DNA of 30,330 nucleotides, taken from positions 1 through 30,330 of IMG/VR virus record IMGVR_UViG_3300043331_000900. One strand, written 5' to 3'. A program made the position numbers and the translations under genes. Numbering within the stretch: the stretch's first letter is position 1; each line of letters opens with the position of its first letter. This DNA comes from a virus. Below the pieces are notes generated by a model. The model worked only from the letters and a program-made list of their open reading frames with translations, was not told the origin of the DNA and searched no databases. Positions 3 through 27,267 of the stretch are shown here, piece after piece.

Positions 3-1487
3 CTGCGCCAGGTCATCGGGCTCGCCCCGAACCAGGAGCGCGCCGTGCGCAACTTCCGCCGCGCGCTCGAAGGGACGGGCCGGGATCCGCTCTCCTACGA
101 GCTGCGCGATCGCCGCTTCGACCGGGCGCTCCGGGCCGGCCAGCTTAGCGCGGAGCAGATCGAGACCATGACCACAGCCTACCGCCGCCGCTTCCTGGCC
201 TGGAACGCCGAGACGAACGCCCGCACGATGGCGCTTGACGCGGAGAAACTCGGCCAGCGGTTGAGCTGGCAGGACGCGATCGACAAGGGGTTCGTCGAGA
301 GCGGCCGCCTCATGAAACGCTGGGCCGGGGTGTTGGACGATCGCGAGCGGCCCGAGCACGTCGCCATGCAGGGCGAGACGGTCGGCTGGGACGAGCACTT
401 CTCGAACGGGGAGCTGATCCCGGGCGAGAGCACGTTCAACTGCCTCATTGGTTCAGTGCCGACGTTTGCTCCCGATGCGATAGCGGCCACCACGCGGGTA
501 TTCGATGGCGAAGTTGTCACCATTCACACGGCCAGCGGCCACGAAGTCACCTGTACCCCGAATCACCCGGTACTGACGAGTCGCGGCTGGCTCGCGGCGG
601 GCAAACTCCAGGAAGGCGACCAAGTAGTCCACCGCCGCGGCGGTGATTGGTCGCTTGGGATCGCAGCGGATCGTCAGCACATGCCAGCCCGCATCGAGGA
701 TATAGCGAAAGCGTTTCTTCTCGAAGCGGGCGACATCCGGCCGCAGCAGGTGCCAGTGGCCGCCGGCGACTTCCACGGCGACGCGGCCGATAGCCAAGTC
801 GCAATTGTAGGGGCCAATGGCAGCCTGCTTTACGAACGGAATCCCGCGCTGGCGGAGCATGGCGTGCAATCCGGGCTCCCAAGGCGATTGCGTGAACCCG
901 CGGATCTGTCGCGTGCGCGCGCGCTGGATGCGTCGCTCGAGGGGGTCCTTTTGCCCACGTCGCGCTGCATGAGCAGCTGCAACTTGCCGCTTTCGCTGGG
1001 TGAGCGTCATTCGGTGCCACTTCAGTCGCTCGGCGTCGGACTGGCCGCGCCGCTTGACGCGTCCCTCGTCGAGCACGCGATCGATCACGAGTCGGGCGAC
1101 GCCGTACGCCTTCGCGAGTTGGTTGATGCTCTCGCCCTCTCGATAGTGTTGGGTAATCGCGCGAACGTTCATGCCAGGCCATCGAATGCGGGCGTCGATA
1201 CGCTGTACGCCGGCCAACTGGGCCACGCGATAGATGCAGGGGATGCTGACCCTGAACACGTGAGCGAGCTCCGCCGCTCGCTCACCGCGGCGGTAGCGTT
1301 TGACAATGTCTTGAGTATCGCGCGGACTGAGTTTCATGGCTTGGTCTATAACCTCGAAACAAGACGGGGCTGGTATCTAGCCGACAGTGTGATTCTACAC
1401 AACTGCCGGTGTATCGCGGTCTACTTCCTAGCTCGCGACCCCGTGCAGGCCCGGCGGGCTGGCCGTGGGCGTGCGGTCGCCGCCTAG
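3..1487 (+). CDS. MuF-type minor head protein, 5'-truncated, with intein
   Basis: Minor head (morphogenesis) protein of the phage Mu gpF / SPP1 gp7 type, which binds the portal and is packaged in the head. The reading frame is open to the left edge, so the true start lies upstream; the in-frame GTG at 45 is internal. The N-extein carries the family's IGL..NQ..AVRNFRRAL stretch, and the C-extein begins with the family hallmark CRC after an Asn (NCRC), then ends in a short basic tail. Between them, codons 441-1403 encode a 321-residue intein, so the mature extein junction would read STFN/CRCIAVY. A host protein normally has about 170 residues after the first visible residue, as here once the intein is removed. 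The family call rests on motif recall, not a search. It is followed 98 bp later by the scaffold gene. Confidence 0.85.
   Translation: MRQVIGLAPNQERAVRNFRRALEGTGRDPLSYELRDRRFDRALRAGQLSAEQIETMTTAYRRRFLAWNAETNARTMALDAEKLGQRLSWQDAIDKGFVESGRLMKRWAGVLDDRERPEHVAMQGETVGWDEHFSNGELIPGESTFNCLIGSVPTFAPDAIAATTRVFDGEVVTIHTASGHEVTCTPNHPVLTSRGWLAAGKLQEGDQVVHRRGGDWSLGIAADRQHMPARIEDIAKAFLLEAGDIRPQQVPVAAGDFHGDAADSQVAIVGANGSLLYERNPALAEHGVQSGLPRRLREPADLSRARALDASLEGVLLPTSRCMSSCNLPLSLGERHSVPLQSLGVGLAAPLDASLVEHAIDHESGDAVRLRELVDALALSIVLGNRANVHARPSNAGVDTLYAGQLGHAIDAGDADPEHVSELRRSLTAAVAFDNVLSIARTEFHGLVYNLETRRGWYLADSVILHNCRCIAVYFLARDPVQARRAGRGRAVAA
441..1403 (+). other. Intein (Hint domain) in the MuF protein
   Basis: Protein-splicing element of 321 residues. 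Block A starts with Cys1 (CLIGSVPTF, codon 441). Block B contains the TPNH tetrad (HEVTCTPNHPVLTSRGW) followed by GKLQEGDQVV. Block F is GLVYNLETRRGWYLADS and block G is VILHN with terminal Asn at 1401-1403, followed by Cys+1 at 1404. All residues needed for class 1 splicing are present: Cys1, block B Thr and His, penultimate His, terminal Asn and Cys+1. The roughly 240 residues between blocks B and F have no LAGLIDADG or HNH motif in the sense frame; that segment is the complement of a minus-strand endonuclease gene. Sense third-position GC is about 67% by hand count, against about 93% in a capsid-gene sample, suggesting a foreign origin. Confidence 0.9.
453..1337 (-). CDS. Antisense Vsr/DUF559-like homing endonuclease nested in the intein
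   Basis: A 294-residue protein read on the strand opposite the intein. Residues about 1-45 and 56-90 look like two helix-turn-helix modules (AAELAHVFRVSIPCIYRVAQ and INQLAKAYGVARLVIDRVL). A basic linker follows (about 92-145), then a Vsr/DUF559-type PD-(D/E)XK fold: WEPGLHAMLRQRGIPFVKQ (155-171), YNCDLAI with Asp180, VAVEVAGGHWH with Glu189, and RYILDAGWHVLTIRC (211-225). This is the pattern of free-standing Vsr-like homing nucleases. The ATG lies opposite block F and the stop opposite the fifth intein codon, so the last 45 or so residues are the complement of the Hint N-terminal half. A GAGGT lies 13 nt before the ATG, a long spacing. In codons 750-929, third-position GC on this strand is 82% against 68% on the sense strand (hand count), which supports real coding. 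Expression and cleavage are inferred. Confidence 0.75.
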   Translation of the reverse strand: MKLSPRDTQDIVKRYRRGERAAELAHVFRVSIPCIYRVAQLAGVQRIDARIRWPGMNVRAITQHYREGESINQLAKAYGVARLVIDRVLDEGRVKRRGQSDAERLKWHRMTLTQRKRQVAAAHAARRGQKDPLERRIQRARTRQIRGFTQSPWEPGLHAMLRQRGIPFVKQAAIGPYNCDLAIGRVAVEVAGGHWHLLRPDVARFEKKRFRYILDAGWHVLTIRCDPKRPITAAAVDYLVAFLEFARREPAATRQYRVIRGTGDFVAAGRVNGDNFAIEYPRGGRYRIGSKRRH

Positions 1488-2461: not shown

Positions 2462-3418
2462 ATGCCTGCGATCTCGATGATGGAAGCGGCGAAGCTGGCG
2501 CTGAACAACGGCGAGACCAAGCGCGCCGGCGTCATCGCCACGTTCGCCCGCGCGTCAGCCTGGCTTGCGAACCTCCCGTTCGCCGACATCCCGGGCAACT
2601 CCTACGCGTACGACCAGGAAGCGGTGCTGCCGGGCATCGCGTTCCGCGGCCTGAACGAGGCCTACATCTCGTCCGCCGGCATTGTCAATCCGCAGGCCGA
2701 GGTGCTGCGCATTGCGGGCGGTGACCTCACCGTCGATCCGGCCAACGTCAAGATGTTCGGGCCGGGCGTGCGGGCGACCCACGAGACGCTGAAGGCCAAG
2801 GCGCTCGCGGCCACCCTGTCCAGCAAGGTGATCAAGGGCGACTCGATCACCGAGCCGCGCGAATTCGACGGCCTGCAGGCCCGCATCCCGTTCGGCTCCT
2901 CGCAGCTCGTCGCGGCGGGCACGACGGACAACGGCGACCCGCTGTCGCTCTTCCTGCTCGACCAGCTGATCGGCAAGGTCAGCGGGCCGAACCGCCAGTT
3001 GTGGATGAACAAGACGATGATCCAGCGCATCACGCAGGCCGCGCGCAAGAGCGACGTCGGCGGCTTCGTGATGTGGCGCCCCGACGAGTTCGGGCGTCAG
3101 ATCCCGACCTACAACGGCCTGCCGATGGTCGAGCCGTACCCGGAGAACGACGGCGTCGAGCCGCTCGCCTTCGACGAGCAGGGCGACGTCGGCGGGACGC
3201 CGGGCGGCACCACGTCGACCTCGATCTACTGCGTGTCCCTCGGGGATGGCTACCTGCGCGGCATCCAGAACGGGGCGATGGACGTGCGCGATCTGGGTGA
3301 GTCGGACCAGTCGCCGCTCCTGACGACCCGCGTTGAGTGGCTGGTGTCGCTCGTCGCCGAACATCCGAAGTGCATCGCCCGGCTGGGCGGGATCTCGAAC
3401 GCGCCCGTGGTGGCCTAA
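2462..3418 (+). CDS. Major capsid protein
   Basis: A 318-residue structural protein, presumably HK97-fold, that forms the head shell. It begins MPAISMMEAAKLALNNGETKRAGVI and continues with the typical N-terminal pattern of this capsid family (a short helix, then WLANLPFADIPGNSYAYDQE). The end is VEWLVSLVAEHPKCIARLGGISNAPVVA, matching the common capsid ending in which a final strand contains ARL.GI. Its position after the scaffold and before the decoration and cement genes supports the call. The start is ATG 2462 with GAGGA at 2451-2455. Codon use is strongly G/C-ending. The 201-bp leader holds the hairpin array, so its translation or mRNA stability may be controlled there. Family assignment is by pattern, not search. 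Confidence 0.85.
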   Translation: MPAISMMEAAKLALNNGETKRAGVIATFARASAWLANLPFADIPGNSYAYDQEAVLPGIAFRGLNEAYISSAGIVNPQAEVLRIAGGDLTVDPANVKMFGPGVRATHETLKAKALAATLSSKVIKGDSITEPREFDGLQARIPFGSSQLVAAGTTDNGDPLSLFLLDQLIGKVSGPNRQLWMNKTMIQRITQAARKSDVGGFVMWRPDEFGRQIPTYNGLPMVEPYPENDGVEPLAFDEQGDVGGTPGGTTSTSIYCVSLGDGYLRGIQNGAMDVRDLGESDQSPLLTTRVEWLVSLVAEHPKCIARLGGISNAPVVA

Positions 3419-3421
3419 GCG

Positions 3422-3772
3422 ATGCCCGTCTCAAAACTCGTTGGCGGCAAGATCACGGGCACCGGTCGTCAGCACTTCGACGACGAGCTCGCGGTCGCGT
3501 ACGGCCAACACACGACCGTCGCCGCGGCCGACACGGTGGTCACCGGCTTGTCGCGGGTGATCCAAGTCGTCGCGACGCTGCAGGACGATCCGATCGACGC
3601 GATCGCGTGGGTCACCGCGACGATCGGCGACCAGGCGGGCACGCCCGCCGCCGGGTCGGTCATCATCAAAGGCTGGAAGCCCACCACGGGCGGCGCCAGC
3701 GGGAATCCGACGCAGGTCGCCGCCACGACGTTCGGCAAAAAGGTCAACTGGTGCGCCATCGGTCTGCCGTAA
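3422..3772 (+). CDS. Small virion protein, probably capsid decoration
   Basis: A 116-residue, mostly beta protein with no signal peptide or membrane segment. Its C-terminal half (residues about 40-116) reads VVTGLSRVIQVVATLQDDPIDAIAWVTATIGDQ, then a Gly/Ala-rich turn, VIIKGWKPTTGG and a final KKVNWCAIG strand. This arrangement recurs in small phage proteins encoded just after capsid genes. It starts 4 bp after the major capsid stop, so it is probably translated from the same message, although the ribosome site is weak (GGTGG). Decoration or stabilisation of the head is inferred from position and size; a head-tail accessory role is also possible. Confidence 0.6.
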   Translation: MPVSKLVGGKITGTGRQHFDDELAVAYGQHTTVAAADTVVTGLSRVIQVVATLQDDPIDAIAWVTATIGDQAGTPAAGSVIIKGWKPTTGGASGNPTQVAATTFGKKVNWCAIGLP

Positions 3773-3848: not shown

Positions 3849-4286
3849 ATGCCGCGGAATACGATCGACGTCGGCTTCGACGTCAACCTTCGCCTCAAGG
3901 ACGCGGGCCTCGTCGCGGCCGATGCAGCGGCGCAGGTGGGCGGCCAGGATCGGGTGCTCGACCTCGGCGCCGCCCGCGTCGACGGCCGCGTGATCGTCGA
4001 CATCACGGCGATCGAGGTCGCCACGGGCGACGAACGCTACCTGATCAAGACCCAGTTCTCGAACTCGCCGACGTTCGCCTCCGGCGTGTTCGGTGGGCCC
4101 GCGCTCGACGTTGGCGACTCGAGCGTCACGAAGGACTCGGCCGACACGGCGGTGCCGACGCGGCGCGAGTTGCCGTTCTGCAACCAGCTCGACGGCGTGG
4201 TCTACCGCTACCTGCGCCTCTTCACCGAGGTGCAGGGCACGATCGCCGCCGGCATCAACTACAGCGCGTTCGCGGCGCTGCAGTAA
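3849..4286 (+). CDS. Bbp16-like capsid cement protein
   Basis: A 145-residue protein resembling the Bbp16 cement protein of Bordetella phage BPP-1, which staples capsomers together. Family-like features are DVNLRLKDAGLVAADAAAQVGG near the N-terminus, then LGAARVDGRVIVDITAIEVATGDERYLIKTQFSNS (about 38-73), the conserved ELPFCNQLDGVVYRYLRLF (about 112-130), and VQGTIAAGINYSAFAAL at the end. Together these give a jelly-roll-type beta protein. The start is ATG 3849 with TGAGGAG at 3835-3841. It is the third gene of the capsid group. The match is from memory of the family pattern; no alignment was run. Confidence 0.7.
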   Translation: MPRNTIDVGFDVNLRLKDAGLVAADAAAQVGGQDRVLDLGAARVDGRVIVDITAIEVATGDERYLIKTQFSNSPTFASGVFGGPALDVGDSSVTKDSADTAVPTRRELPFCNQLDGVVYRYLRLFTEVQGTIAAGINYSAFAALQ

Positions 4287-4316
4287 GCCGCGGCGGGAAA
4301 GGAACGCACGCTTCCG

Positions 4317-4589
4317 ATGATCAAGACGCCCGATGGCAAGGTGTTGCTCTGGGGTCCGGACAGTCAGCAGCGCGAGCACTGGCCGATCGACGCCCGGGGC
4401 ATGTTGCGCGAACGCACGAAGGACGGCCAGCCGGTCTACTCGACGGAGCCACCGGAGGGCACGGAGCCGAAACTCCCCCCGATGCCTCCCCGGGTCGTCG
4501 GGGCGCCCAAGGTGGCGCGCGCCCAGGTGTTTGAAGCCCCGCCCGAGCTCGCCGCGGACCCGAAGCCGCGGCGAGGGAAGGCTGAATAG
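4317..4589 (+). CDS. Small hypothetical head-region protein
   Basis: A 90-residue soluble protein. The N-terminal 45 residues (IKTPDGKVLLWGPDSQQREHWPIDARGML) look like a small folded unit. From about residue 42 on the chain is Pro/Glu-rich and probably disordered, ending in basic residues (PKPRRGKAE). ATG 4317 is preceded by GGAAAGGA about 12 nt upstream. The stop overlaps the GTG start of the adaptor gene by one base (TAGTG), so the two are translationally coupled. I do not recognise the family. By position it may be a virion or assembly accessory protein. Confidence 0.6.
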   Translation: MIKTPDGKVLLWGPDSQQREHWPIDARGMLRERTKDGQPVYSTEPPEGTEPKLPPMPPRVVGAPKVARAQVFEAPPELAADPKPRRGKAE

Positions 4590-5143
4590 TGGCGATCACG
4601 ATCCAGGCGACGCCGGGCCATGCCCAGGCGAACTCCTACGCGACCGAAGCCGAGTACCTCGCGCGGGCGGAAACCCGGCTCAACCTGCCGTCCTCGGTCA
4701 ATACGACGGGGACGGGCAGTCTCACGGACACCGAAAAGAAAGCGCTGATCGAGGCGCAGCGCGAACTGACCACGATGGTGTGGAAGGGCACGCGCACCAC
4801 CAGTACGCAGGCACTCGCCTGGCCGCGCCAGGACGCCCCGGATCCCGACGCCCCCGGGATCTACGGTCTCACCGATCCCGACGACTTGTACTTCGACGAT
4901 ACCGAAGTCCCGCTCCGCGTCAGGGACGCGCAGCTCGAGCTCGCGTTCGAGTTCCTGCGCGCGGGCACGAGCGACCTCGCGGCGGCGGATCCTAACACCG
5001 GCGTCGCGCAAAAGACGGTCGACATCCTCACGACGCGGTGGTTCGAGCACCAGCGCCCGACTGGGCTCGGGCGGTTCCCCCGGATTCTCGTGCTGATCAC
5101 CCCGCTCCTCGAAGGCACGGGCCTCGAGGTCGTGCGGACCTGA
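4589..5143 (+). CDS. Head-tail connector (adaptor)-like protein
   Basis: A 184-residue protein of the group often labelled DnaT-like or head-tail adaptor in phages. Hallmarks are GHAQANSYATEAEYLARAETRLNL at the N-terminus (the ANSY..AEY pattern), KKALIEAQRELTTMVWKG in the middle, the conserved QALAWPRQDAPDPD, and VPLRVRDAQLELAFEFLRAG toward the C-terminus. In related phages this protein sits under the portal and starts the connector. It uses a GTG start overlapping the previous stop, with GGAAGG upstream. The next connector genes (head closure, neck) are unusually far away, at 11.9 kb. The name DnaT-like does not imply a replication role here. Confidence 0.65.
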   Translation: MAITIQATPGHAQANSYATEAEYLARAETRLNLPSSVNTTGTGSLTDTEKKALIEAQRELTTMVWKGTRTTSTQALAWPRQDAPDPDAPGIYGLTDPDDLYFDDTEVPLRVRDAQLELAFEFLRAGTSDLAAADPNTGVAQKTVDILTTRWFEHQRPTGLGRFPRILVLITPLLEGTGLEVVRT

Positions 5144-15386: not shown

Positions 15387-17754
15387 GATGACTACGATGG
15401 ATCTGGCGACGCTCGGTCTCGTGGTCGAGAACGGGCAGATCGTCAAGGCGCGCGCGGAGCTCGACAAGCTCGGCGTGGCCGGGGAAGCAGCGGCCGCCCG
15501 GACGCAGCGCGCCTGGCAGGGCGTGGGCACCATCTTCCAGCGCGGTGGCTTCGCGACGGGCGTCCAAGCCCAACAGGAAATCATGCAGGCCATGATCCGC
15601 GACCAGCAGTCGCTGGCGCCAGCGCTGGATCGCAGCACCAAGGCGACGCGACTCCTGCAACAGGGGCTAGTGGGTGTGGCACTCCAGGCAACGGCCACGA
15701 GCGGCCCCGTCGGCCGGCTGGCGCAGTCGGCGCTGCTCTTCGGTGCCGGGACCACGGCGATCATCGCCGTCGCGGCGGCGGTCGGGCTCGCGGCCGCCGC
15801 CTATCGGCTGTGGACCCGTGACGCACGCGAGAACAAGAAAGCCCAAGACGATCTCCGCGCGAGCCTCGACGGGATGGGGACCCACGCGCAGCTGGTTGCG
15901 GCCCGGATCCAGCTCGCCGCGCTCGAGTCGCAGAAGTCCGTCAGCGGCTGGCGTCAGGCGCTCGCCGGGGTGCTGGAGGCCGCCAACCTCGGGTCGCTCA
16001 GTGGGCTCCTGCTCCCGGATCTCGAGAAGATCAATCGCGAGATGGCGAGCGTGCGGACCCGGATCCTGGAGTTGACCAAAGCGTTCGAGGAGCCTTGGCG
16101 CCAGGCGCTGCAGCAGTCAAACGTGGCGCTCGCGGAGGCGCGGCTTCGGATGCAGTTGGTGCACGAGCCGACGGCCGTGGTCGAGGAAGCGGTCCGGGCG
16201 CTGCGGCTTGAGCTGGGCGAGAAGTTTCCTCCTGCTGCCGCCCGCACGATCGCCGCCACCGAGCGACTGACCAGCATGCAGAACAATGCCACGGACCACT
16301 CGCGTCGACTGCGCGAGTGGCACGACCGCCTCGTCGCGACCCACACCCATCTCTGGGGATCGAGCCGGGCTCTCGCCGACGCGCTGCAGGTCCTTGTGCT
16401 CATCCAGCAGGGCTACACCCGGGCTGTCGCGGAATCGCTCGTCGCCGGCGAACGCTGGTACCGGAACCTGCAAGACCTGCAGGAGCAGATCCGGAATGCC
16501 GTGGACGCCATGCAAGGTGCCTTCGCCAACTTCTTCGAGCGCACGTTTCGCGACGGCGTGGCGAGCTTCCGCGAGCTCGCCGACGCTATTCGCCAGATCT
16601 GGTCGCGCCTCGCGGCGGACCTCCTTGCCCAGCGGCTGTTCGAGCGGCTCAGCGCTGGCGCGACCAAAACCATCACGGGCGCAGGGGTCGGGTTCGGCGT
16701 GGGATCGCAAGCGGGTCCCGGGGCTGGGCTCGTCGCCGGCGTCGGCGCAGCAGCCCTCCTGGGCGCCGGTCCGTGGGGCATTGCGATTGCCGGTGTAGCG
16801 GGGCTTGTCGGCGGACTCTTCGGACTCGGCAAGGCGGCGGAGGACGCGCGGCGCCGTCTCCGGGAGGTTGAGCGGAGTCTTGACGCGTTCCGGGCGAGCG
16901 TGACCCCCGGCAACCTGGACGACCAGATCGCCGCCGTGCGCGCGCAAACTGAGGCGCTGCGCCAAACGATTCCGAAGGGCTCGCAATTGCACCACCAGTT
17001 GAACGTCCTTGAGCAGATCCGCATCGCGCAACTGCGTGAAGAGGCAGCGGCACTTCGCCAAGCGCAGCAGGAGGACCTGCGTGTCCGTCTCCTGCGCGCG
17101 AGGGGCAAGGACGACGAAGCCGAGGCCCTGGCGTTCGCGCTCGAGCAGCAGCGCGAATACGCGCGGGCCGTGCGGGAAGGGGCCGACGCGACCTATCTCG
17201 CCCAGCTCGCCCAGGTGCAATACGCCGAGGCGCAGCGCTATGCGGCGGAACGGATCCGCGAGACGATCGGCGGCCTGACGGCCACGATCGACGTCCTGCG
17301 GAGCTTTACTCAGAGCCTCAAGCTCAACACGAGTCTCACCGCGCTCTCGCCCGTGCAGCAGCTCGCCGAAGCGCGCCGACAATACGAGGCCGTGCTCGGG
17401 CGCGCGCAGGCCGGCGACCAGGGCGCCGCGGCGCAACTGCCCGACGTCGCGCGCGCCTTCCTCGAGGCGAGCCGCGCCGTCAACGCGTCCGGCGGGCGCT
17501 TCCAGGTCGACTTCCTCCGCGTACTGCGCGAGACCGAGGCCGTGGCGGCGTTCTTCGAACACCAGCGCTCGCTCGAAGAACAGCACCTCGAGGCGCTTGA
17601 GCGGCTCGCCGAAGAGCAGCAGACCACGAACCGCATTCTCACTGCTGGCTTCAAGGTGCTCATCGGCAAACTGGAAGGCGCGAGCACCGACGTGCAGGCG
17701 CTCGGTCGCCGCCTCGAAGGGGCGCAGCTCGGCCGGAGCGCCGTGCTCAAGTGA
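15376..17754 (+). CDS. Tape measure protein
   Basis: A 792-residue tail length ruler; at roughly 1.5 angstrom per residue (established rule) this would give a tail near 120 nm. The N-terminus MDLATLGLVVENGQIVKARAELDKLG is the lambda gpH-like start. Long helical, Ala/Gln/Arg-rich regions follow. Two hydrophobic stretches lie at about 115-145 (LLFGAGTTAIIAVAAAVGLAAAAYRLW) and 440-495 (GVGSQAGPGAGLVAGVG ... GIAIAGVAGLVGGLFGLG), as expected for a protein that may insert in the host membrane. The last 200 residues are coiled-coil-like. GTG start with GAGGAGGAGG upstream, overlapping the chaperone fusion end. Its stop overlaps the GTG of the hub gene. Confidence 0.85.
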   Translation: MAAEMTTMDLATLGLVVENGQIVKARAELDKLGVAGEAAAARTQRAWQGVGTIFQRGGFATGVQAQQEIMQAMIRDQQSLAPALDRSTKATRLLQQGLVGVALQATATSGPVGRLAQSALLFGAGTTAIIAVAAAVGLAAAAYRLWTRDARENKKAQDDLRASLDGMGTHAQLVAARIQLAALESQKSVSGWRQALAGVLEAANLGSLSGLLLPDLEKINREMASVRTRILELTKAFEEPWRQALQQSNVALAEARLRMQLVHEPTAVVEEAVRALRLELGEKFPPAAARTIAATERLTSMQNNATDHSRRLREWHDRLVATHTHLWGSSRALADALQVLVLIQQGYTRAVAESLVAGERWYRNLQDLQEQIRNAVDAMQGAFANFFERTFRDGVASFRELADAIRQIWSRLAADLLAQRLFERLSAGATKTITGAGVGFGVGSQAGPGAGLVAGVGAAALLGAGPWGIAIAGVAGLVGGLFGLGKAAEDARRRLREVERSLDAFRASVTPGNLDDQIAAVRAQTEALRQTIPKGSQLHHQLNVLEQIRIAQLREEAAALRQAQQEDLRVRLLRARGKDDEAEALAFALEQQREYARAVREGADATYLAQLAQVQYAEAQRYAAERIRETIGGLTATIDVLRSFTQSLKLNTSLTALSPVQQLAEARRQYEAVLGRAQAGDQGAAAQLPDVARAFLEASRAVNASGGRFQVDFLRVLRETEAVAAFFEHQRSLEEQHLEALERLAEEQQTTNRILTAGFKVLIGKLEGASTDVQALGRRLEGAQLGRSAVLK

Positions 17755-25963: not shown

Positions 25964-26200
25964 ATGACCCGCAAACGCACCTCCGTCAAGAAGCGTAAGC
26001 GCCACCCGCAGGCGAAGGGGAACGACGTGTTTGTGTCCCTGAGCGACCGGGATAGCGCTGATCTCGATGCGGCCGTGGAGATCGAAGCCGAAGCCCGTGG
26101 CGAGCGCGTCTATCGAGCCGGCCTGTTGCGTGAGTTGGCCATGCCGCACGTCCGTGAGATCGTCGCGCGCCGGGTGCAACCCGCGGAGGCGGTGGCCTGA
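25964..26200 (+). CDS. Small ribbon-helix-helix-like regulator (Cro position)
   Basis: A 78-residue basic protein, the first gene of the rightward operon and divergent from the repressor. Residues 1-20 are very basic (TRKRTSVKKRKRHPQAKG). Residues 22-62 (DVFVSLSDRDSADLDAAVEIEAEARGERVYRAGLLRELAMPHV) have the length and pattern of a ribbon-helix-helix fold: a strand V-V-L, helix A, turn G, helix B ending in LRELA. Such proteins bind DNA as dimers and would suit an anti-repressor or Cro-like role here. No ribosome site is evident, in agreement with a short leader. It overlaps the next gene by one base (TGATG). Confidence 0.6.
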   Translation: MTRKRTSVKKRKRHPQAKGNDVFVSLSDRDSADLDAAVEIEAEARGERVYRAGLLRELAMPHVREIVARRVQPAEAVA

Positions 26201-26409
26201 TGATCCGCCCCGGCCATCCCGAGTACGTGACCCGCGACGACTTCGCCAACGACTTGGTCTGCGGGGTCTGCGGCCAGCGCAAGATCGAGTATGACGGCGA
26301 CTGGGTCTGTCCCCACGATGTCGCGTTAGGCATTCCGCCCCGTATCCCGCCGCTCCCGCCGCGCGTGTCCCCGGTCGTGTGGCGCGCGCGCCCACAGCCA
26401 CGCGACTGA
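26200..26409 (+). CDS. Small zinc-ribbon-like protein
   Basis: A 69-residue protein with a Cys pattern VCGVCGQRKIEYDGDWVCPHD (residues 20-40): CxxC plus C..H, a short zinc-ribbon or knuckle. The N-terminal part (MIRPGHPEYVTRDDFANDL) is acidic. The C-terminal 25 residues are Pro/Arg-rich and likely disordered. ATG 26200 overlaps the previous stop and its own stop overlaps ATG 26409 (TGATG both times), so all three are translated in series. Function unknown; phage early regions have many such small metal-binding proteins. Confidence 0.55.
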   Translation: MIRPGHPEYVTRDDFANDLVCGVCGQRKIEYDGDWVCPHDVALGIPPRIPPLPPRVSPVVWRARPQPRD

Positions 26410-26801
26410 TGCGCACCACCCGTGCGGTCGTCAAGACACCGGCCCTGAAGCCCGAGCCGTCGGCGAGCGCGATGGCCGCCTACCTCACGGACCAGGCCGG
26501 GCTCCGCATCATCGCCCTGCATGCCGACTTCGTGATCGCCGAGCGCCCCGTGTTCGGGGTGCGCGGGGCCTACCGGCGGTTCGTGGCCGGGTGGACCCCA
26601 GACCACGGCTGGCGCGTCGGCGCGGCGCTCACGGAGTACGCGCCCCGCGTCAAGGAAGTGACCCGGACGCGCTCGCTCGATCGCACGGCGTTCACGGACT
26701 TTGATGCGTTGGGCCGGTTCGTGGGCGGCTGGAACGCGAAACCGATCGAGGCGTTGGACGAAGCCGCCTTGAGGCACAGCGAGGCGTCGCATGGCGCGTG
26801 A
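26409..26801 (+). CDS. Hypothetical early protein
   Basis: A 130-residue soluble protein. The frame is open to 26379, but ATG 26409 overlapping the previous stop is the better start. The first 25 residues are basic and Pro/Ala-rich. The rest contains AAYLTDQAGLRIIALHADFVIAERPVFGVRGAYRRFVAGWTPDHGWRVGAALTEYAPRVKEVTRTRSLDRTAFTDFDALGRFVGGW, probably an alpha/beta domain. I know no relative. It overlaps the next gene by 11 bp. Position suggests early function. Confidence 0.5.
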   Translation: MRTTRAVVKTPALKPEPSASAMAAYLTDQAGLRIIALHADFVIAERPVFGVRGAYRRFVAGWTPDHGWRVGAALTEYAPRVKEVTRTRSLDRTAFTDFDALGRFVGGWNAKPIEALDEAALRHSEASHGA

Positions 26802-27267
26802 CGCTCGGCACACGGCGGCGCCGGAGCAAGGTGGGATGCACGGCGTCCCGCGTGAGCGGTGGGGTGGCAACGGCCATCGTGACCCGATCTCGAAGTACGT
26901 CGCGACGCGCTTGGGGCTCAAGTCGGCGATCAGGGCGGAGAAGCTCATGCGGTCGGCCCCCCAGGACACCGCCGCCATCATTGAGGAGTTGTTCGCGCGT
27001 GGGGCGGAGTCTCGCGCCCTCCTGACGGGGAGCGTCGTTGTCGCGGCACTCGAGCGCATCCGCCCGCAGTCGGTCGATGCCCTGCTGCAAGTCGCGCAGG
27101 ACGCGGACGCCTTCGAGGAGAGCCCTGAGTCGGCGTACCGGATGCACCGCTGCCGCGAGACACGGCGCGCGTGGCTCCACAAGCTCCATCGCCAGTACAT
27201 CACCACGCTGCAACTGATCGTCGCGCTCAAGGCCGAAGATCAGGCCGACATGGAAGTGCCCGCGTGA
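26791..27267 (+). CDS. Hypothetical helical early protein
   Basis: A 158-residue protein from ATG 26791, within the end of the previous gene. It is helical and charged: DPISKYVATRLGLKSAIRAEKLMRSAPQDTAAIIEELFARGAESRALLTGSVVVAALERIRPQSVDALLQVAQDADAF, then ESAYRMHRCRETRRAWLHKLHRQYITTLQLIVALKAEDQADMEV. No motif is recognised. Its stop overlaps GTG 27264 (GTGA). The compact operon of overlapping small genes is typical for phage early regions. ATG in MHGVPRERWGG (about 26836) is another possible start. Confidence 0.5.
   Translation: MARDARHTAAPEQGGMHGVPRERWGGNGHRDPISKYVATRLGLKSAIRAEKLMRSAPQDTAAIIEELFARGAESRALLTGSVVVAALERIRPQSVDALLQVAQDADAFEESPESAYRMHRCRETRRAWLHKLHRQYITTLQLIVALKAEDQADMEVPA

Follow-up and report, generated by a model that had tools for sequence, protein, structure and literature searches.

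A predicted Vsr-type homing endonuclease gene lies antisense and codon-in-codon within an intact intein of a phage MuF-like head gene

Where does an intein whose own reading frame carries no endonuclease keep its mobility gene? The question is raised by the virus contig IMGVR_UViG_3300043331_000900, all 30,330 bases of which are referred to here as the window, and whose first complete feature is the 3' part of a MuF gene with its intein. An original prediction, made from the letters alone, had placed an intein at 441-1403 and a 294-residue minus-strand frame at 453-1337, coordinates that proved exact, and had interpreted the latter as an antisense homing endonuclease (HEN). The results from this study support that interpretation and extend it to overprinted expression signals, a dual constraint opposite intein block B, a wide family and evidence for homing. 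The following features were identified on the plus strand.

3..1487, plus strand: MuF-like head morphogenesis gene, split by the intein, 5' end beyond the record (phrog_15127 head protein, E 1.2e-41; phrog_3517, E 6.5e-28; Phage_Mu_F, E 4.8e-4)
441..1403, plus strand: intein of 321 residues, Cys1 to His-Asn and then Cys+1, junction TFN/C...HN/CRC (Pfam Intein_splicing, E 1.8e-9; fold matches the Mtu RecA intein)
441..479, plus strand: intein block A with Cys1 (sequence; Pfam and NCBIfam intein models)
537..590, plus strand: intein block B, GHEVTCTPNHPVLTSRGW, residues 33-50 (T39, P40 and H42 invariant in the intein alignment)
1335..1370, plus strand: intein block F, HGLVYNLETRRG (the minus strand of 1335-1337 is the HEN start codon ATG)
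1383..1406, plus strand: intein block G with the C-terminal His-Asn, and extein Cys+1 (sequence)

The sense frame was open from 3 to 1487. Judged from its sequence, the window intein is an intact class 1 intein that is predicted to splice, with a complete set of splicing residues consisting of Cys1, TPNH (residues 39-42), His320-Asn321 and Cys+1. Both profile and fold identified it as a Hint/intein domain. In the structural model, only the two splicing halves were folded with confidence, and the ordered part matched the Mtu RecA intein and others. The sense middle, residues about 124-268, was modelled as disordered (pLDDT 32-50), and profile searches of the sense frame returned no match to a nuclease domain, in agreement with the prediction that no endonuclease resides in the intein's own frame. 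The features of the minus strand were as follows.

453..1337, minus strand: predicted Vsr/DUF559-type HEN gene, 294 residues, codon-in-codon with the intein (frame, profiles, family alignment, model, fold match)
1215..1325, minus strand: first HTH module, HEN residues 5-41 (HTH_28; modelled helices 5-16, 21-28 and 32-41)
1065..1166, minus strand: second HTH module, HEN residues 58-91 (HTH_7/HTH_58; modelled helices 58-66, 71-78 and 82-91)
594..890, minus strand: nuclease core, HEN residues 150-248 (conserved columns; I-Bth0305I fold match)
798-800, 771-773, 750-752 and 711-713, minus strand: core residues Asp180, Glu189, His196 and Arg209, respectively (conserved columns)
456..575, minus strand: C-terminal tail, HEN residues 255-294, opposite intein blocks B and A (hairpin strands 255-260 and 265-270, pLDDT >90; dual constraint)
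1350..1355, minus strand: Shine-Dalgarno-like GAGGTT, reverse of sense Asn304-Leu305 (GAGG 14 nt from the window ATG, about 8 in relatives)
1392..1397, minus strand: weak -10-like TAGAAT, reverse of sense Ile318-Leu319 (in relatives, a TATAAT lies one codon from this position)

The triplet boundaries of the HEN frame coincide with those of the sense frame, such that the first position of each sense codon pairs with the third of an antisense codon and vice versa. As predicted, the frame starts opposite block F, its ATG being the complement of sense His299 (1335-1337), and stops opposite the fifth residue of block A (453-455). Moreover, YRVIRG in the HEN tail is the exact complement of TPNHPV in the intein.

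Profile and structural comparisons agree on what this frame is predicted to encode. The window HEN matched HTH_7 (E 7.5e-6) and HTH_28 (E 5.7e-5), and its residues 158-225 matched REase_MTES_1575 (E 6e-4 as a single sequence, below the curated cut-off), a model that was matched by 52 of 64 family members with a best E of 8.7e-9. Asp180, Glu189 and Arg209, whose catalytic role is putative, were invariant in the alignment of 64-71 members, and His196 was conserved in at least 90%. The two HTH-like modules and the Vsr/DUF559 core with Asp180 and Glu189, all part of the original prediction, are thus borne out. The AlphaFold2 model built with 64 relatives had a mean pLDDT of 90. A structural match of the Vsr type, which the prediction had named as a check, was also present: the top PDB match in Foldseek was the catalytic domain of the Vsr-type homing endonuclease I-Bth0305I (3r3p, E 7e-4, probability 1.0), and the family profile matched 3hrl (2e-6) and 3r3p (1.3e-4) in PDB. 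By these sequence and model comparisons, the minus-strand ORF is an HTH-HTH-Vsr/DUF559-type endonuclease with predicted cleavage activity.

Openness of the antisense frame is not significant by itself, as the GC-rich window has many long antisense ORFs. Two others, of 489 residues (16117-17586, minus strand) and 414 residues (25986-27230, minus strand), are possibly just compositional. The HEN frame stands above chance because of its homology, and a chance antisense ORF was ruled out by homology together with the codon-position test described below. About 190 related phage or prophage loci were examined, and nearly all of them were inteins with an antisense gene; the enzyme was free-standing in only two. 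In tblastn, the antisense protein matched 118 phage records and the sense intein 122; among the best records, bit scores were higher for the antisense protein than for the sense intein. Every occupied locus fetched from these records contained both the intein and the antisense HEN. Among the phages with occupied loci are those of Salmonella, E. coli, Pantoea, Vibrio, Edwardsiella, Klebsiella, Pseudomonas, Aggregatibacter, Idiomarinaceae, Gordonia and Mycobacterium. A search of plasmids gave one weak match.

A first scan of viral contigs, whose pattern was the complement of block B, yielded 80 loci; the bias from this seed was removed by a second scan with patterns of the nuclease core only, which yielded 109 loci, of which 97 were called inteins automatically. 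Eight of the remaining 12 were inspected. Among them, five are inteins, of which L104, L183, L194 and L206 have a variant block B and L195 a broken antisense frame; L211 looks like a spurious match, and in L175 and L192 the enzyme is free-standing. Of the other four, which were read only in part, L116 shares its frame coordinates with L183; L128, L154 and L166, which show the block B motif, escaped the automatic call either through being cut by contig ends or through being missed by the motif rule. Across 88 loci in all, the two frames were always codon-in-codon; throughout the match, no stop interrupted the sense frame at any of the 88, and the antisense frame was open at 86. The predicted need for both strands to stay open holds. 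From extein codon usage, 300 stops would be expected in 20,161 antisense codons (72 related loci), and only 2 of the 88 matched stretches contained one. No close relative that would permit selection on the window copy's own branch to be tested was found, the first-scan matches being at most 44% identical.

The codon positions indicate which strand is under selection. In the nuclease region, antisense wobble positions differed at 0.50 and sense wobble positions at 0.36 (59 pairs). In the nuclease core, antisense wobble was more variable in 17 of 17 independent pairs (Wilcoxon p 1.5e-5), and 0.447 of antisense four-fold sites differed vs 0.190 of sense ones (p 5e-40; 17 independent pairs), where sites are partly non-independent and these small p values, like the others from the selection tests, are to be read as strong rather than exact. 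The alignments were built on the antisense protein, which possibly favours it at high divergence; the nearly ungapped close pairs gave the same pattern, and in 16 close pairs the core antisense four-fold sites changed at 0.35, about the same as extein four-fold sites (0.38). Since antisense wobble is the most variable in the core, it is the antisense protein that is selected there, with the sense chain little more than an open linker. In the homologous inteins, purifying selection thus acts on the antisense frame and the sense middle drifts, which is the reverse of the pattern that would have counted against the original prediction, namely a broken antisense frame with a sense middle conserved as protein.

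Opposite blocks A and B, the order was reversed, with 0.258 for sense and 0.159 for antisense. Moreover, the sense four-fold sites opposite these blocks were less free than the core antisense four-fold sites (p 7e-9), as would be the case if both proteins were of importance. Thus, both frames look constrained in the tail opposite intein block B. In addition, the Glu189 codon (771-773 in the window and its counterparts in relatives) was GAA at 64:7, vs 413:584 for the other Glu codons of the same genes, which suggests a remaining sense constraint under which the sense Phe of DFHGD is also kept. DFHGD was considered as a sense-only motif and rejected, as it is largely the complement of the VAVEV strand of the nuclease.

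Expression signals of the HEN gene are written into blocks F and G. In the family, the HEN start codon is the complement of the block F His codon (HVYNL); His was found at this position in 69 of 72 family loci and in 0 of 48 ordinary inteins, and it was written CAT, which gives ATG on the other strand, in 57 of 69 cases vs 114 of 315 in exteins (p 1e-12). Similarly, the block F Leu was written CTC (complement GAG) in 54 of 71 cases vs 491 of 1814 in exteins (p 6e-17), and together with the neighboring Asn its complement is GGAGGTT, about 8 nt before the ATG in relatives. A Shine-Dalgarno-like sequence was present in 62 of 72 family loci vs 4 of 48 ordinary inteins. In block G, Ile-Ile was written ATT-ATA (complement TATAAT) in 46 of 60 cases vs 4.4% expected (binomial p 4e-50), and the preceding codon ended in CA, corresponding to the TGn of an extended -10, in 52 of 95 cases vs 830 of 5687 in exteins (p 3e-19); the -10 evidence is this position-specific codon bias. 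A -10-like hexamer was found in 2 of the 48 ordinary inteins, a control set of which one, L215, proved to be a family member. The codon usage of the flanking exteins is the better control, because the ordinary inteins differ in genome and in block G residues. Consensus promoter scans found no full sigma-70 promoter in the window or in L002. Taken from these codon choices, the HEN start, its Shine-Dalgarno sequence and a TGnTATAAT-like box are overprinted on intein blocks F and G, from which the gene would be expressed.

In the window copy, the block F His is replaced by Leu; because of this loss the HEN starts two codons later, with a Shine-Dalgarno spacing of 14 nt, and its expression signals are weaker than those of its relatives. 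The window HEN may thus be weakly expressed or starting to decay, though its ORF and putative catalytic residues are intact.

The distribution of the intein supports its mobility. The inteins of E. coli phage Snoke (Kagunavirus) and Salmonella phage PK2 (Jerseyvirus) are 95.6% identical; identity changes at the intein borders and is 66.7% and 79.0% in the flanking exteins. With a query of the joined flanks, 402 of 487 matching records covered at least 80% of the query in one place and were taken as empty sites, counted by this coverage and not one by one, and about 70 records held the intein. One sequenced empty allele is that of Salmonella phage S4lw (L101, HPN/CRSS). A related intein, also with an antisense Vsr-like HEN, occupies a second Cys site in the MuF gene of E. 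coli phage KMB36 (L100:212-2182, TSTT/C ... KN/CRARD). These comparisons support horizontal transfer of the intein with sharp borders, probably by homing.

Two further arrangements were found. The MuF gene of L064 contains two inteins (3898-5037, antisense gene on the plus strand, and 2881-3684), one of which is of the standard type. The one at the upstream Cys site carries an antisense, codon-in-codon protein that combines a DUF559/Vsr-like nuclease region with several zinc-finger-like Cys motifs, identified by reading motifs and not by profile search. The two free-standing HENs, of L175 (2937-3902, plus strand; MuF 3893-4747, minus strand) and L192 (3195-3890, plus strand; MuF 3874-4920, minus strand), are convergent with an intein-less MuF gene and overlap its stop. 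Searches for further relatives of the L064 zinc-finger HEN and of the L175 HEN returned only the query in each case. Both free-standing HENs keep a YRVIRG-like tail (Y-x-V-I/V-x-G) with no intein opposite, which suggests that the tail genuinely belongs to the enzyme. Their position in the tree, among the intein HENs and supported moderately or weakly, makes them look more like escapes than like ancestors.

Given these results, we consider the window element to be a mobile intein with a homing endonuclease gene flipped inside it, a reading to which we assign a probability of about 0.88. The intein would be translated with the MuF head protein and then splice itself out, so that the phage keeps its head protein, and the long sense segment between blocks B and F would serve only as a linker without stop codons. 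On the other strand, the separate HTH-HTH-Vsr endonuclease would be driven by a promoter at block G and the C-extein border, with the Shine-Dalgarno sequence and start in block F. The enzyme's target would be the zinc-knuckle-like Cys site of MuF alleles that lack the intein, and repair of the cut allele would copy the intein in. The codon-in-codon register is the one antisense frame that would allow any protein while the opposite strand stays open, because opposite-strand stops affect only Leu TTA/CTA and Ser TCA, all of which have synonyms. This permissiveness would explain why the register is codon-in-codon in every case. We further hold it to be somewhat probable that such elements form a widespread selfish class in which two protein genes, together with the promoter, ribosome-binding site and start of one of them, are compressed into complementary strands, the TPNH block B and the YRVIRG hairpin being the same DNA, and that this class evolved at least twice (HTH-Vsr, and the zinc-finger-DUF559 of L064).

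Other readings of the locus were weighed against this one. The antisense frame might be a shadow of a selected sense intein, open and seemingly conserved only through complementarity, as might be imagined from the many long antisense ORFs in the GC-rich window, the greater constraint on the sense frame opposite blocks A and B, and the GAA preference at Glu189, which looks as though the sense Phe of DFHGD were also kept. However, the codon-position test ruled this out in the core, where antisense wobble was the more variable in all 17 pairs, and it is partly true in the tail. The nuclease and HTH family matches and the confident fold belong to the antisense protein and not to the sense middle; the codon bias of the start and Shine-Dalgarno positions, for which there is no sense-side reason, also counts against a shadow. 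We therefore regard it as highly improbable. Unlikely as well, if less so, is an antisense endonuclease that no longer or not primarily serves homing, such as a domesticated regulator or an exclusion factor against the MuF alleles of rival phages. The free-standing copies convergent to intein-less MuF genes (L175 and L192) and the DNA-binding HTH modules are in line with such a role, but the patchy occupancy with about 400 empty sites, the transfer borders at the intein edges and the second insertion site in MuF (L100) fit homing.

A further reading, compatible with a mobile intein carrying a flipped endonuclease gene, is that the arrangement is real in the family and the window copy is degenerating and no longer expressed. 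It is the less likely state of the window HEN, yet it deserves appreciable weight: the start-codon His is lost, the Shine-Dalgarno spacing is long and the -10 is weak. The full-length ORF, the invariant Asp180, Glu189 and Arg209 and the presence of His196 speak against it. In a few relatives (L076, L078 and L195), the antisense frame has a stop and the sense intein is open, as would be expected of decaying HENs in a homing cycle.

According to one source, intein HENs all occupy one conserved insertion site (PMC6801210). Similar to the canonical LAGLIDADG/HNH inteins, the HEN found here lies between blocks B and F, the element is mobile and splicing restores the host protein. Different from them, the HEN has a gene to itself on the other strand, whose own expression signals lie on blocks F and G, and it is outside the spliced-out polypeptide, no nuclease match being found in the sense frame of the window intein. 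In the fractured genes that Dassa et al. reportedly described in 2009, a free-standing HEN is located between the halves of a split intein. The EDxHD/Vsr homing endonucleases (I-Bth0305I) share the nuclease fold family with the HEN of the window; here, however, the intein is continuous, with an uninterrupted sense frame in the window and at 88 of 88 loci, and the HEN overlaps it antisense.

Antisense endonuclease genes are already known from group I introns: I-DsqI of the Didymium squamulosum L2066 intron is expressed from the strand opposite the host gene and cuts the empty allele (PMC9548176). That element is an RNA intron of free sequence, in which no open sense frame is demanded and no protein splicing motifs are overlapped codon-in-codon. 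A hidden frame in the same element is also known, from the ShiLan-type insertion, an in-frame, stop-free phage insertion with an HNH homing endonuclease out of frame (Arsenault, Gosselin and Gogarten 2025; PMC11855218). The window element is not of this type: the ShiLan-type gene is in an alternative frame of the same strand, encodes an HNH enzyme and has no splicing domain, whereas the element described here has the opposite strand, a splicing domain and a Vsr-like nuclease. The original prediction had also held the arrangement not to be a described standard form, and our literature search found no description of an antisense homing endonuclease in an intein, though one preprint on actinobacteriophage inteins may cover part of it. 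That preprint reportedly covers the PhagesDB inteins, which would include those of Gordonia MuF phages, and its title is said to contain "Non-Canonical Architecture".

The results thus add an intein arrangement in which a continuous cis-intein carries an independent, antisense mobility gene. With such a gene, expression of the endonuclease could be timed or tuned apart from the late head gene. The family would also be an example from nature of antisense dual coding on a large scale, in which complementary codons hold two functional folds as well as expression signals. It occurs in many unrelated phages, and dozens of independent sequence pairs are available for testing such coding. Moreover, it explains a widespread annotation gap: an unannotated nuclease is hidden in many MuF inteins of public phage genomes, and one deaminase of this set bears the annotation of a head protein. 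The family is a possible source of compact antisense cassettes and new site-specific nucleases.

Finally, several members of the family depart from the common pattern. In a supported clade (L045, L052, L056, L059 and L073), Ala replaces Cys at the intein start (GR/A...), resembling class 2 (Ala1) inteins. In L007:616-1968 (minus strand; KX853510), the family intein is in a dCMP/cytidine deaminase, which is annotated as a head morphogenesis protein, probably owing to the intein. L215, which surfaced in a blind search for intein C-termini, comes from a cyanobacterial genome, in which the MuF intein and the same antisense HEN probably belong to a prophage.
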